From Dyella sp. EPa41 (GTDB lineage: Bacteria; Pseudomonadota; Gammaproteobacteria; Xanthomonadales; Rhodanobacteraceae): 64,000 bases of DNA. Location: positions 1 through 64,000 of the forward strand of contig NZ_BCPR01000003.1 in NCBI RefSeq assembly GCF_016586165.1. Direction: 5' to 3'. This document shows positions 58,900 through 64,000 of the stretch, in pieces (the stretch's first letter is position 1; every line of letters starts with the position of its first letter). The notes beneath the pieces are model-generated. The model worked only from the letters and a program-made list of their open reading frames with translations, was not told the DNA's origin and did not search any database. The position numbers and the translations under genes are program-made.

Positions 58900-59253
<354 letters not shown>

Positions 59254-59360: not shown

Positions 59361-59873
59361 ATGCTGCGGATTCGTCAGGCTGGGCTGTCCGATGCAGGTG
59401 TGCTGACTCAGTTGCGTTGCGCCTTTCTCGAGCAGGAGCTCCACCAGGAACTGCCGGCTGGTTTTGCCGATGACCTGCATGGCTGGATCGAGGAGGCGAT
59501 TCCCGAGGGACGCTTGCTGTTCTGGCTGGCGGAGTTGGACGGGCGTGCGGCGGGGTGCGTCGCGGTACATCCGTATACGCACCTGCCGTCGGCTTATTTC
59601 CGACGTGGCCTGGGCTGGTACGTACTCAACATGTACGTGAAGCCATCGCATCGGCGCCAGGGCGTGGCCAGCGCGCTGCTGGCCGCGGTCGGCGCGGCGG
59701 CGCGGGATCATGAAGTGGATTCGATGAACCTGCATTCCACCGCCGCGGCCCACGGGATGTATGAGCGCTTTGGCTTCGGCACCTCGGTGGATGCCATGAA
59801 CATGACGTTGCACGGGGACGTGGTGGGGCTCTCCGAGGGAGAGCCCGGCATGCGTTGGGGCAAATCAGGCTGA
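59361..59873 (+). CDS. GNAT family N-acetyltransferase
   Basis: A 170-residue acetyltransferase. Visible are the N-terminal [16 protein letters not shown], motif [22 protein letters not shown] (acetyl-CoA loop RRQGVA) and motif [20 protein letters not shown] precedes the ATG at 59361. Its last 9 bases overlap the end of smpB on the opposite strand. It lies between tmRNA and smpB, both on the other strand. Acceptor unknown. Confidence 0.92.
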
Positions 59874-60353
59874 GCGGTTGTGCGCGCGCATGGTGCGCTG
59901 CTTTTCACGCTGCCAGTCGCGTTCCTTTTCGGTCTCGCGCTTGTCGTGGGCCTGCTTGCCCTTGGCCAGGCCCAGCTCGACCTTCACCTTGTTGCCCTTC
60001 CAGTACATGGCGGTGGGGATGAGGGTGTAGCCCTTGCGCTCGACCGCGCCGATCAGCGTGTCGATCTCCGCGCGATGCAGCAGCAGCTTGCGCGTACGGC
60101 GGTCGTTGGCGATCACGTGCGTGGAAGCGCTGATCAGCGGCGGGATGGAGGTACCCACCAGCTGGATCTCGTTGGCGATGACCATGGCATAGCTGTCGCC
60201 GAAGTTGATGCGGCCGGCGCGCAGCGACTTCACCTCCCAGCCCTGCAGCTCGATGCCGGCCTCGAAGCGCTGGTCGATGTGGTACTCGTGGCGGGCGCGC
60301 TTGTTGAGCGCGATGGTGCCGCCTTGCTTGTCTTTGTCCTTAGCCTTGGCCAT
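59865..60353 (-). CDS. smpB: SsrA-binding protein SmpB
   Basis: A 162-residue protein that binds tmRNA and positions it in the A site of stalled ribosomes. The OB-fold core is conserved: [44 protein letters not shown], and the basic C-terminal tail [20 protein letters not shown] that reaches the mRNA channel. Length matches the family. The partner RNA gene is on the same strand 0.6 kb downstream. Confidence 0.97.
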
Positions 60354-61156: not shown

Positions 61157-61603
61157 TCAATGCCCCTGATCGCCGCCGTCCTTGCCCTCAGGCGGGGTGC
61201 TGCCGGTGTTCTTGTCACCCTTGGTTTCGTCGACCGGATAGCTGGCGTGGTACTTCTTGGTGTCGTCCACCAGCTTCTGCGCGTCTTCGGCGAAGAAGTC
61301 ACCGTCGGTGCGCACCAGCGAGTCGTTGTTGAAGGTGAGCGTGAGCGTGCGGATCTTGATGTCGCCGCCGCGGTGCTGCTGGGTGGAGACGTAATTCCAC
61401 TGGTTCTGGTTGAACGGCGAGTTCACCGACGGCGAACCCATCAGTACCAGCACCTGGCGCTTGGTCATGCCCGGCTGCAGCTGATCCACGTTCTTCTTGT
61501 CGAGCAGGTTGCCCTGCTGCACGTCAGGGGTATAGATGAGACGGCAGCTGGCCAGCGAGACGGCCAGCATGGCGAAACCCAGCGTGCGAATCAGCTTATG
61601 CAT
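61157..61603 (-). CDS. bamE: Outer-membrane assembly lipoprotein BamE
   Basis: A 148-residue lipoprotein with lipobox LASC (Cys20), followed by RLIYTPDVQQGNLLDKKNVDQLQPGMTKRQVLVLMGSP, the conserved BamE/OmlA core, and NQWNYVSTQQHRGG. It is a component of the BAM complex that inserts beta-barrel proteins. The C-terminus carries an extra acidic Gly-rich tail of about 40 residues. Divergent from fur, 77 bases apart, an arrangement common in Xanthomonas and Pseudomonas. Confidence 0.96.
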   Translation of the reverse strand: MHKLIRTLGFAMLAVSLASCRLIYTPDVQQGNLLDKKNVDQLQPGMTKRQVLVLMGSPSVNSPFNQNQWNYVSTQQHRGGDIKIRTLTLTFNNDSLVRTDGDFFAEDAQKLVDDTKKYHASYPVDETKGDKNTGSTPPEGKDGGDQGH

Positions 61604-61680: not shown

Positions 61681-62094
61681 ATGGAACAGGAAACCAAAGA
61701 ACTGCGCAAAGCCGGGCTGAAGGTTACCCACCCCCGCATGCGCATCCTGCAGATCTTCGAGGACGAGGAGGCTCACCACCTCACCGCCGAAGACGTCTAT
61801 AAAAAGCTGCTGGCCCATCAGGAAGACATCGGCCTGGCCACGGTGTACCGGGTGCTTACCCAGTTCGAGGCTGCCGGCATCGTCGTCAAGCACAACTTCG
61901 AGGGCGGCCAGGCCGTCTACGAGTTGGACCGCGGCAAGCATCATGACCACATGATCGATGTGGACAGCGGAAAGGTCATCGAGTTCGTCAGCGAGGAGAT
62001 CGAGCGCCTCCAGCACGAAATCGCGGCCCGCCATGGCTACGTCATCGAGGACCACAGCCTGGTGCTCTACGTGCGGCCCAAGAAGGCCAAGTAA
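61681..62094 (+). CDS. fur: Ferric uptake regulator Fur
   Basis: A 137-residue regulator with the winged helix at 8-80 (ELRKAGLKVTHPRMRILQIFE ... GLATVYRVLTQFEAAGI) and the metal domain with HHDHMIDVDSGKVIEF and the C-terminal HSLVLYVRPKK. It represses iron uptake genes with Fe2+. The CxxC pair found after HHDH in E. coli Fur is replaced by Asp and Ser, so the structural zinc site of that type is missing. The ATG at 61681 follows GGAG; the longer frame is not conserved. Ends at a clear terminator. Confidence 0.96.
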   Translation: MEQETKELRKAGLKVTHPRMRILQIFEDEEAHHLTAEDVYKKLLAHQEDIGLATVYRVLTQFEAAGIVVKHNFEGGQAVYELDRGKHHDHMIDVDSGKVIEFVSEEIERLQHEIAARHGYVIEDHSLVLYVRPKKAK

Positions 62095-62230: not shown

Positions 62231-62268
62231 AAAAAAAGCCGCGGGAGGACTCCTGTCCGCCCTGCGGC
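62231..62268 (-). terminator. Rho-independent terminator of the small RNA / kinase transcript
   Basis: On the minus strand, outer stem GCCGC / GCGGC with inner GGG...CCC and GGAC-AGGA-GTCC, followed by TTTTTTT (62231-62237). It also serves as the end of the kinase transcript. Confidence 0.88.
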
Positions 62269-62450
62269 TTGATCCGTTACCGGATGGCTCCTGGAGAGGG
62301 CGAATTGCTCGCTCAACCCGGTTGTGCCACCGATTCCGGCGGAACGGCATCCTGCCGTTCTTCTTGCCCACCGTCCCCACGGTTGGCAAGGCTCACCATC
62401 TTGCGATGGTGGCTCCCCCACATCGATGGAGAGAGCCTAACGAAGCCTTC
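62231..62450 (-). ncRNA. Candidate structured small RNA
   Basis: This interval has no convincing gene but is packed with hairpins, ending on the minus strand in a terminator. On the window strand the stems are CACCATC/GATGGTG (62394-62400, 62405-62411), CTTGCC+ACCGT/ACGGT+GGCAAG (62363-62390), GAACGGC/GCCGTTC (62342-62360), CCACCG/CGGCGG (62327-62342, alternative with the last) and ATCCG/CGGAT (62272-62285). Loops read on the minus strand are GCAA and GTAA (GNRA type) and AGGAT. The terminal hairpin 62238-62268 is followed by seven T. It lies just after the kinase gene stop (62488), so it is either an independent RNA or a 3'-UTR-derived one. Confidence 0.55.
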
Positions 62451-62487
62451 ACACGTCCGGTATTGGAAAATTTCCTATGTAACGTTC

Positions 62488-64000
62488 TTAAGTGCGCGCC
62501 ACGTCACTGGTTTGCGTGCTGCTGCGCAACAATACGCGCAGGTGCACGCCCTGCGATTCGGGCCGGACCCGGAACAGGCCGCCCAGCGCCGTGACACGGT
62601 CGCGCATGCCCTGCAGGCCGCGACCGCCGCGAGGCAGGCGCGCCGGCAGGCCGACGCCGTTGTCACGGATGTCCAGCAGGGCCAGCGCCGTGCCCTGGCG
62701 CTCACCGATGCGCAGGCGCAGCTGGAATACATCGGCATGGGCGTGCTTCACCGCGTTGGTGGCGCTTTCCTGCACGAGGCGATAGATCACCGTGCGGGTG
62801 TCGTCGTCCAGCAGGCGAGGGTCGCCGCGCAGCTCGGTGCGGTAGGCCACGCCGGCGGCGTTGAGCAGGTCACGGATCGGGCCTTCGTCCAGTGCCCGCA
62901 GCAGGCCGAATTCGTCCAGCACCGCCGGGCGCAAGTCGTCCAGCAGGCGGTGCAGGGCGCGTCGCATATGGCCCAGGATCCCATTGATGGACACGCCGAT
63001 GTCATCCATGCCCGCCTGCGCGAGGCGCGACTGGGCCAGCTTGAGATGCGTCTGGATGGCGGTGAGGTTCTGCCCCAGCTCGTCGTGGAGCTCGGCGGCC
63101 ATGTGGCGGCGCTGGTTTTCCTCGGCCTGGAGATTGCCGCGGGCGGCGTCCCGGAGCTGGCGGGCGAGATGGTCCAGGCGGCGGTTCACGGCGGCGAGGT
63201 AGACGTTCTGCTCGGCCACGCGCTCGCTGCTGCGGCGCAGGGCATCGGTGGCTGAACCGAGCATCAGGGCGCCCGTGCCGGCCACCGCGAGGAACAGCTC
63301 GCCAGGGGCACTGGGGATGCCATGGCCGGAAATGTGGTCCATGACGGTCATGCCCAGGCTGGAAATCAGCATGGACAGGCTGGCGCCGCGCCAGCCATGG
63401 CGGAACGCGAAGAACAGCACCGGCGCCAGCGACAGCACGCGGGCGAACTGGGGCTGCGGCGCGGCATGCGAGGACAGCACCATCAGGATCGCCAGCGAAG
63501 GCACCAGCACCAGCAGGCCATCCATCAGCAGGCGCGCCATGGCGCGTTTGGCCAGGCGGGCGCGCATCAGCATCACCAGCAGGGGCACCACCAGCAGCAC
63601 GCCGACGTAGTTGCCGAGCAGGTCCTGTCCCAGCGCCTGGATCATCAGGTCGGAGGTCGGGCTGGCGTGCACCAGGGCCAGCAGCACGGCGTCGGTGGCG
63701 GTCGTGGCGGCCACGGTGAAGGCCGCGGACAGCAGCAGGCGGGCGACGTCTTCGGGGTCGCGCAGGCTGGCGTGAAGCTTGGCGCGGCGCATCAGCCAGA
63801 GGCAGATCGCCACCACCGTGGGTTCAGGCACTTCGCCCAGCAGAAAGCCGGTCCAGCCCAGCGGCAGGCCATGGGTTGCGGCCAGCAGGCCGGTCGCCGC
63901 GAACTCCGCGCCCAGCAGCCACGGCCACATGCGCATCGGGGCCAGCAGCAGGGCGCCGAAGCGCAGGCCGTAGGGAAGCATCCAATAGGGCTGCTCGGTG
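62488..64000 (-). CDS. Sensor histidine kinase with MASE1-like membrane domain (5' end outside the window)
   Basis: At least 504 residues; the frame is open to the window edge, and residues before the Met at 63981 (TEQPYW) continue the domain, so the start lies further right. The N-terminal half holds about seven or eight membrane spans in a MASE1-like pattern (GLRFGALLLAPMRMWPWLLGAE). It is followed by a helix and the HisKA_3 box AEENQRRHMAAELHDELGQNLTAIQ with the phospho-His, and an HATPase domain with NAVKHAH, DNGVGL and GRGLQGM. This is the NarL/UhpB class of kinases, so a LuxR-type regulator would be its usual partner; none is downstream. Confidence 0.9.
   Translation of the reverse strand, partial: TEQPYWMLPYGLRFGALLLAPMRMWPWLLGAEFAATGLLAATHGLPLGWTGFLLGEVPEPTVVAICLWLMRRAKLHASLRDPEDVARLLLSAAFTVAATTATDAVLLALVHASPTSDLMIQALGQDLLGNYVGVLLVVPLLVMLMRARLAKRAMARLLMDGLLVLVPSLAILMVLSSHAAPQPQFARVLSLAPVLFFAFRHGWRGASLSMLISSLGMTVMDHISGHGIPSAPGELFLAVAGTGALMLGSATDALRRSSERVAEQNVYLAAVNRRLDHLARQLRDAARGNLQAEENQRRHMAAELHDELGQNLTAIQTHLKLAQSRLAQAGMDDIGVSINGILGHMRRALHRLLDDLRPAVLDEFGLLRALDEGPIRDLLNAAGVAYRTELRGDPRLLDDDTRTVIYRLVQESATNAVKHAHADVFQLRLRIGERQGTALALLDIRDNGVGLPARLPRGGRGLQGMRDRVTALGGLFRVRPESQGVHLRVLLRSSTQTSDVART

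Follow-up and report, generated by a model that had tools for sequence, protein, structure and literature searches.

A candidate CsrA-titrating RNA gene beside a two-component system in Dyella and related bacteria

Known CsrA/RsmA antagonists and the locus in Dyella

Among the described antagonists of CsrA and RsmA, the RNAs RsmY, RsmZ and PrrB of Pseudomonas (RF00166, clan CL00106) were compared with the RNA of the present locus. They have in common the hairpins with GGA loops, the terminator hairpin, the short intergenic gene and, as we infer for this RNA, a presumed titration of CsrA/RsmA and control by a NarL-family regulator. They differ in length (133 model positions against 197 nt for this RNA) and in control, as no GacA box was found for this RNA and its regulator is UhpA/MctR-like and encoded next door. 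The GTGGGG motifs of this RNA were not seen in those parts of the RF00166 consensus that were compared. CsrB is a longer RNA that offers far more sites, and the genes of its regulators are not known to form a package with it. Both CsrB and CsrC of the enterobacteria are reported, in the excerpt from PMC7286519, as CsrA sponges under the BarA/UvrY two-component system, and a sponge under a two-component system is what is proposed for the present RNA also. Several GGA motifs are reported as required for Csr/Rsm sponges (PMC2375449, in excerpt), and the same arrangement of several GGA in hairpin loops is found in this RNA. Within the same order, RsmU (sRX061) of Xanthomonas campestris is described in the excerpt from PMC7694677 as an RsmA-binding RNA with forms of 77 and 117 nt processed from the comEA 3'-UTR, as still binding RsmA after its four GGAs were changed, and as lying outside the known antagonist families. 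It shares with the present RNA the GGA motifs, the place outside the classical families and the order, RsmA binding being a property of RsmU. The gene context is different, the comEA 3'-UTR in that excerpt against the gap between a kinase gene and fur here, and identity with RsmU was rejected on this ground. A covariance model (CM) built for this RNA found nothing outside one family in 299 genomes of the order.

The window, that is the whole stretch of 64,000 nucleotides analysed from Dyella sp. EPa41 of the family Rhodanobacteraceae, carries the RNA on its minus strand with the following neighbours.

62231-62427, minus strand: small RNA gene, candidate CsrA sponge, predicted 197-nt transcript (own CM R1 match of 230.5 bits, the window sequence itself being part of the model; blastn homologues in 30/61 genomes; covariation)
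62488-64000, minus strand, running past the window end: sensor histidine kinase gene, UhpB-like, with MASE1, HisKA_3 and HATPase_c (Pfam; NCBIfam, below cut-offs)
G000:C3:64153-64788, outside the window: response regulator gene, NarL/LuxR family, divergent to the kinase gene
61681-62094, plus strand: fur, convergent neighbour on the other side of the RNA (Pfam PF01475, E 1.6e-43)

The RNA most likely spans 62427 to 62231 (197 nt), its +1 being placed from the -10 element, and it starts about 60 nt 3' of the kinase stop on the same strand. Beyond the window, recN and then hrcA lie past the response regulator gene. The nearest models to the neighbouring kinase and regulator are UhpB/UhpA and MctS/MctR, all below the NCBIfam cut-offs; the best match of the kinase is UhpB with 185 against a cut-off of 408, and the regulator reached 167 of 300 for MctR and 150 of 258 for UhpA. 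This regulator does not belong to UvrY/SirA/GacA (NF007018, 129 bits against a cut-off of 280). Elsewhere in the window, a tmRNA gene (tag ANDDNYALAA; 58901-59253, minus strand) lies close to smpB (59865-60353, minus strand).

The Rfam search gave RF00166 (PrrB_RsmZ) in the window with 24.1 bits against a gathering cut-off of 44, and in a second Dyella sequence (L006) with 22.4 bits. No match was obtained in L029 and L023 (a Luteibacter and a Frateuria relative), none appeared at E up to 1 in the 20 relatives that were scanned whole, and none of the Rfam Csr/Rsm models reached its cut-off. Membership in RF00166 was rejected at the cut-off, the sub-threshold match being limited to the two Dyella sequences, and the earlier note, which recognised no Rfam family, was right at that cut-off. 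The RNA would act as an Rsm RNA does, but judged by the family's own test it falls outside RF00166. A RAGATH-28 match at 61503-61578 (22.2 of 45.3 bits) was taken as chance.

The note had also described about 200 bases lacking a gene. The length stood, at 197 nt, and no conserved protein was seen; mechanical ORFs do cross the stretch on both strands. A protein-coding reading was rejected, as the ATG frame inside the RNA varies from 20 to 64 residues with frameshifts among the 30 homologues. The locus is almost certainly a real and conserved small RNA gene. The main reading, to which a probability of roughly 0.75 is given, is that the 197-nt RNA would titrate CsrA/RsmA, has its own predicted promoter and would be switched on by the adjoining kinase/response-regulator pair.

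Promoter-like block and the choice of regulator

Between the kinase stop and the RNA the following promoter-like elements were found.

62461-62477, minus strand: conserved palindrome TAGGAAATTTTCCAATA, putative response-regulator site, centred at about -43 (unique in the genome; box in 107/107 sequences)
62434-62439, minus strand: -10 element TAGGCT (TAnnnT), at fixed spacing to the palindrome

The palindrome follows the pattern TAGGAA-N3-TTCCnA, and a search of the 4.9-Mb genome that allowed up to two mismatches gave no second site. A matching box is present in all 107 distinct sequences, and in 106 of them TAnnnT stands exactly 38 nt from the first base of the palindrome. These sequences were picked by the 5' end motif and a terminator with T run, so both of these are present by construction; box and spacing were not selection criteria, although a single fixed pattern served to search for the box. 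In the lineage of L070 the palindrome reads TAAGAA-TTT-TTCTTA, both arms having changed together. A position at about -43 is a usual place for an activator. The sigma-70 scan lists no site at the promoter region of the RNA, which is to be expected where a -35 is lacking. The own promoter and intrinsic terminator are present as sequence elements (palindrome, -10, terminator hairpin and T run), and the terminator, the -10 and the palindrome at fixed spacing suggest an independent gene.

The exact box pattern gave 61 sites in the 299 genomes of the order, against 1 for the reversed control. At this locus lie 54 of the sites, in 54 genomes which all have the regulator; 4 lie elsewhere in such genomes and 3 in genomes without the regulator. 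The four boxes elsewhere mean that the small RNA need not be the only target of the regulator in every genome. A second copy of the palindrome in L184 (G028:C41:218714-218729, minus strand) seems to lie 3' of another LuxR-type regulator gene and before a short reading frame, and is possibly a second target or part of a related system.

The best surviving alternative, though an unlikely one, is that the CsrA sponge is driven by GacA or another regulator, the adjoining pair being a mere neighbour. The palindrome does not by itself reveal which protein binds it, and a GacA-like regulator occurs in 76/76 genomes of the family. However, these include 12 genomes without the kinase/regulator/RNA module, and the presence of the RNA is tracked by the neighbouring regulator and not by the GacA-like one, the former (E 1e-50 or better) being found in 64 of the 299 genomes, including all 61 with the RNA. 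This co-occurrence is weaker than the count suggests, because it is probably one gain in one clade. The GacA-type box has the motif TGTAAG-N6-CTTACA. At up to two mismatches none was found at the locus or elsewhere on contig C3, and with 22 places in the genome against 30 for the reversed control such boxes are not commoner than the control. A GacA box was rejected for the promoter of the RNA, the conserved upstream palindrome being a different one. Control of the RNA by the neighbouring two-component system is, on these sequence patterns, fairly likely. A GacA-like regulator gene of the window genome (G000:C3:123911-124546; NF007018, 217 bits against a cut-off of 280) lies on the same contig as the regulator of the module, at a distance of about 59 kb.

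The earlier note had also considered that the RNA is processed from the kinase mRNA, in which case only read-through from the kinase gene and release by RNase would produce it, as RsmU arises from the comEA mRNA in Xanthomonas. The distance of about 60 nt from the kinase stop on the same strand and the upstream kinase in 73/73 loci with enough flank agree with this, as does the precedent of RsmU, which binds RsmA in Xanthomonas and is cut from a 3'-UTR (PMC7694677, in excerpt). Processing from a 3'-UTR, however, needs neither the palindrome nor the TAnnnT that are kept at fixed spacing in 106/107 sequences, and the promoter-like block that separates the RNA from the kinase stop makes this origin improbable.

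Fold, conserved loops and CsrA

The minus strand from 62480 to 62200 folds with an MFE of -128.2 kcal/mol against -106.1 (sd 5.3) for shuffles (z -4.14; 0/200 as stable), and together with the T run this bore out the stable hairpins and the minus-strand terminator noticed earlier between the two genes. The plus strand also folds strongly (z -4.32), as inverted repeats do, so the strand call rests on the T run, the promoter-like block, the loop conservation and the CM. In the alignment of the 30 homologues, 44 pairs in five helices have 99.6% of 1319 cells paired against 36-50% for slid control versions of the structure, and its derivation from the same 30-sequence alignment favours it on this measure; ten weaker RNAalifold consensus pairs of the middle region were left out of the 44. 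Changes on both sides were found in 21 of the 44 pairs (68 cells), where shuffles average 6.2 pairs (11.3 cells), and 0/500 shuffles reach either value. For further pair types, 1/500 shuffles reaches the observed value. The covariation among relatives, which the earlier note had named as the test that could refute it, is strong. The five hairpins are as follows.

62391-62413, minus strand: hairpin 1, GNRA tetraloop GCAA (9 pairs, 5 changed on both sides; GNRA 30/30)
62363-62390, minus strand: hairpin 2, loop region GTGGGGAC (11 pairs, 7 changed on both sides; GGA 30/30)
62342-62360, minus strand: hairpin 3, loop AGGAT (7 pairs, 4 changed on both sides; GGA 30/30, of which 29 in one column and 1 shifted by one)
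62300-62312, minus strand: hairpin 4, GCGAGCAATTCGC (5 pairs, 1 changed on both sides)
62231-62269, minus strand: hairpin 5, the intrinsic terminator, its loop AGGA lying in ACAGGAGT and followed by the T run at 62237-62231 (12 pairs, 4 changed on both sides; loop GGA 30/30)

The loop of hairpin 1 is GNRA in all 30 homologues, in five versions (GCAA 25, GCGA 2, GTAA, GAGA and GAAA). Of the two GNRA loops claimed earlier, it is this one that was found throughout, the second (GUAA) being read off the window sequence only. The AGGAT and AGGA loops exposing GGA do exist and are conserved (loop GGA 30/30). The loop of hairpin 3 is mostly AGGAT, AGGAA or AGGAC on changing stems, with a stem of at least 4 in 93/107 sequences by a simple script, and judged by its sequence hairpin 3 is the best CsrA-like site among the hairpins. 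The GGA of hairpin 2 overlaps the U-A pair that closes the loop, and the site departs from the textbook ANGGA form. Hairpin 5 is not listed by a simple terminator scan, and its T run was read from the sequence; terminator hairpin and T run are present in 30/30 homologues. The similar motifs GTGGGGGAG (62413-62421, minus strand, near the 5' end) and GTGGGGAC (62373-62380, minus strand, in hairpin 2) are invariant in 30/30, one homologue having an extra G in GTGGGGGAG, and this invariance exceeds the needs of CsrA binding.

The RNAs carry 6-9 GGA triplets each. No raw GGA excess was found in the 7 homologues tested (dinucleotide-shuffle p 0.15-0.63), and the GGA count, not being above shuffles, was dropped as evidence for a sponge. 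The placement of the triplets was analysed in predicted folds of 44 representatives chosen at under 55% shared 8-mers, whose mean folding energy is -101 against -76 kcal/mol for shuffles. On average 2.0 hairpin loops of an RNA hold a complete GGA, compared with 0.45 after dinucleotide shuffling; when a closing base on each side is counted with the loop the values are 3.02 and 0.68, and 43/44 representatives have at least 3 such loops. The two strict GGA loops are those of hairpin 3 and the terminator ACAGGAGT, and the third, counted with the closing base only, is hairpin 2 GTGGGGAC. Of 2640 individual shuffles, 200 had at least as many strict GGA loops as the sequence from which they were made. 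The placement is therefore only slightly out of the ordinary in a single RNA, and it is conservation that gives it weight. Four GGA sites (columns 13, 54, 79/80 and 184) are present in 30/30 homologues. A single csrA match was found in the genome (G000:C34:31642-31797; NF002469, 118 bits against a cut-off of 73). The RsmY/Z-type reading proposed earlier gains support from the position of GGA in the loops of hairpins, from the terminator loop ACAGGAGT, from the own promoter-like elements and from the csrA gene, and these features make a CsrA-titrating, Rsm-like sponge the probable identity of the RNA, with good confidence.

The other function considered is that of a base-pairing small RNA (Hfq/ProQ type), whose invariant G-rich stretches would pair with C-rich mRNAs, the loop GGA being incidental. 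The lack of enrichment in raw GGA number fits it, and so do GTGGGGGAG and GTGGGGAC, invariant in 30/30 bar one inserted G and beyond what CsrA needs. Against this, GGA in hairpin loops is 4.5 times as frequent as in the shuffled sequences and the AGGA loops are retained on stems that change, which leaves base pairing as the main function with a low probability. An elaborate terminator or DNA repeat without RNA function, with which the strong folding on both strands would agree, is hardly credible against the both-side changes in five helices and the invariant loops across 11 genera and the one strong CM match per genome.

For the sponge switched on by the adjoining pair, the mechanism would be as follows. 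The neighbouring regulator, when phosphorylated, would bind the palindrome at about -43 and recruit RNA polymerase. The RNA would accumulate and hold CsrA at its GGA sites, which are those in the hairpin 3 and terminator loops, probably that of hairpin 2, and also those outside the helices. CsrA would be drawn off its mRNA targets, the translation of which would change. The RNA would act like RsmY, RsmZ or CsrB, with the local UhpA-like regulator in place of GacA/UvrY. We infer transcription, CsrA binding and regulator binding, and with them the whole chain from signal to CsrA.

Distribution, possible origin and meaning of the module

By blastn the RNA was found in 30/61 genomes spanning 11 genera: 20/20 of the genus (own genome included), 10/17 of other family members and 0/24 of other families. 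The CM gave strong matches (E 1e-19 or better) in 61/299 genomes of the order, all in one family and one per genome. From a separate set of 57 matches, nine weak ones with E 0.0004 to 0.009 were set aside, namely L069 and eight that lay in the wrong orientation. In a class sample of 369 genomes the only CM match was in the genome of the window itself, the filters being strict and family members few in the sample, and a wider origin of the RNA was rejected on this search. The three regulator-bearing genomes outside the 61 (G020, G025 and G253) also possess the kinase gene, the palindrome and, ahead of fur, a gap that contains GGA, with a diverged RNA candidate. In these loci TAnnnT at the 38-nt spacing is present in two, G253 being the one without it, and GGA loops make up 3/6 of the predicted hairpins in G020 (end point arbitrary), 1/5 in G025 and 4/8 in G253. 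A CM match of G020 on another contig (20.7 bits) was regarded as accidental and is not counted among the 61, the candidate of this genome being the module locus.

The gene order is conserved. In loci with enough flank, counted from 80 of the 95 loci found by DNA pattern, the kinase is upstream in 73/73, the regulator divergent in 55/55 and fur convergent in 68/69. In the further genomes with strong matches, fur, kinase and regulator are in place at 19/19 loci and recN at 18/19. One Luteibacter bin (L112) has the RNA and the kinase, with no fur match in the following 3.5 kb. L120, L124, L153 and L157, filed under 'Proteobacteria', Thiobacillaceae and Candidatus Eremiobacteraeota, also carry the module, and their kinases share 71-73% identity with that of the window; these loci are most likely misbinned contigs.

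In 6/10 genomes that lack the module, recN adjoins fur directly, at a distance of 47-298 bases with no kinase or regulator match between the two; three of these junctions belong to the same family, two to a second and one to a third, and in the other four genomes fur lies beyond the 1.5 kb examined beside recN. From this adjacency the module looks like one insertion at recN-fur, in which kinase, regulator and RNA may have arrived together as a cassette. The chances are evenly balanced for a fuller version, by which a self-contained kinase/regulator/sponge cassette entered the recN-fur junction in an ancestor of the clade of Dyella, Rhodanobacter and Luteibacter and gave CsrA a second, private input beside Gac. 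The two-component system would then speak mainly through one RNA, the one strong site of the regulator in the window genome being the sponge promoter.

No report of this RNA was found in the literature searched (open-licence PMC papers), and within that scope it is undescribed, CsrA-titrating small RNAs being already known as a class. The antagonists of CsrA/RsmA in the relatives of Xanthomonas are poorly known. A conserved sponge candidate with an adjoining sensor, in mostly soil- and plant-associated genera, offers a direct way to test both the CsrA control and the signal of the kinase. If the packaging is true, it shows a way by which new signals can be wired into the Csr network of a bacterium, through the gain of one locus.
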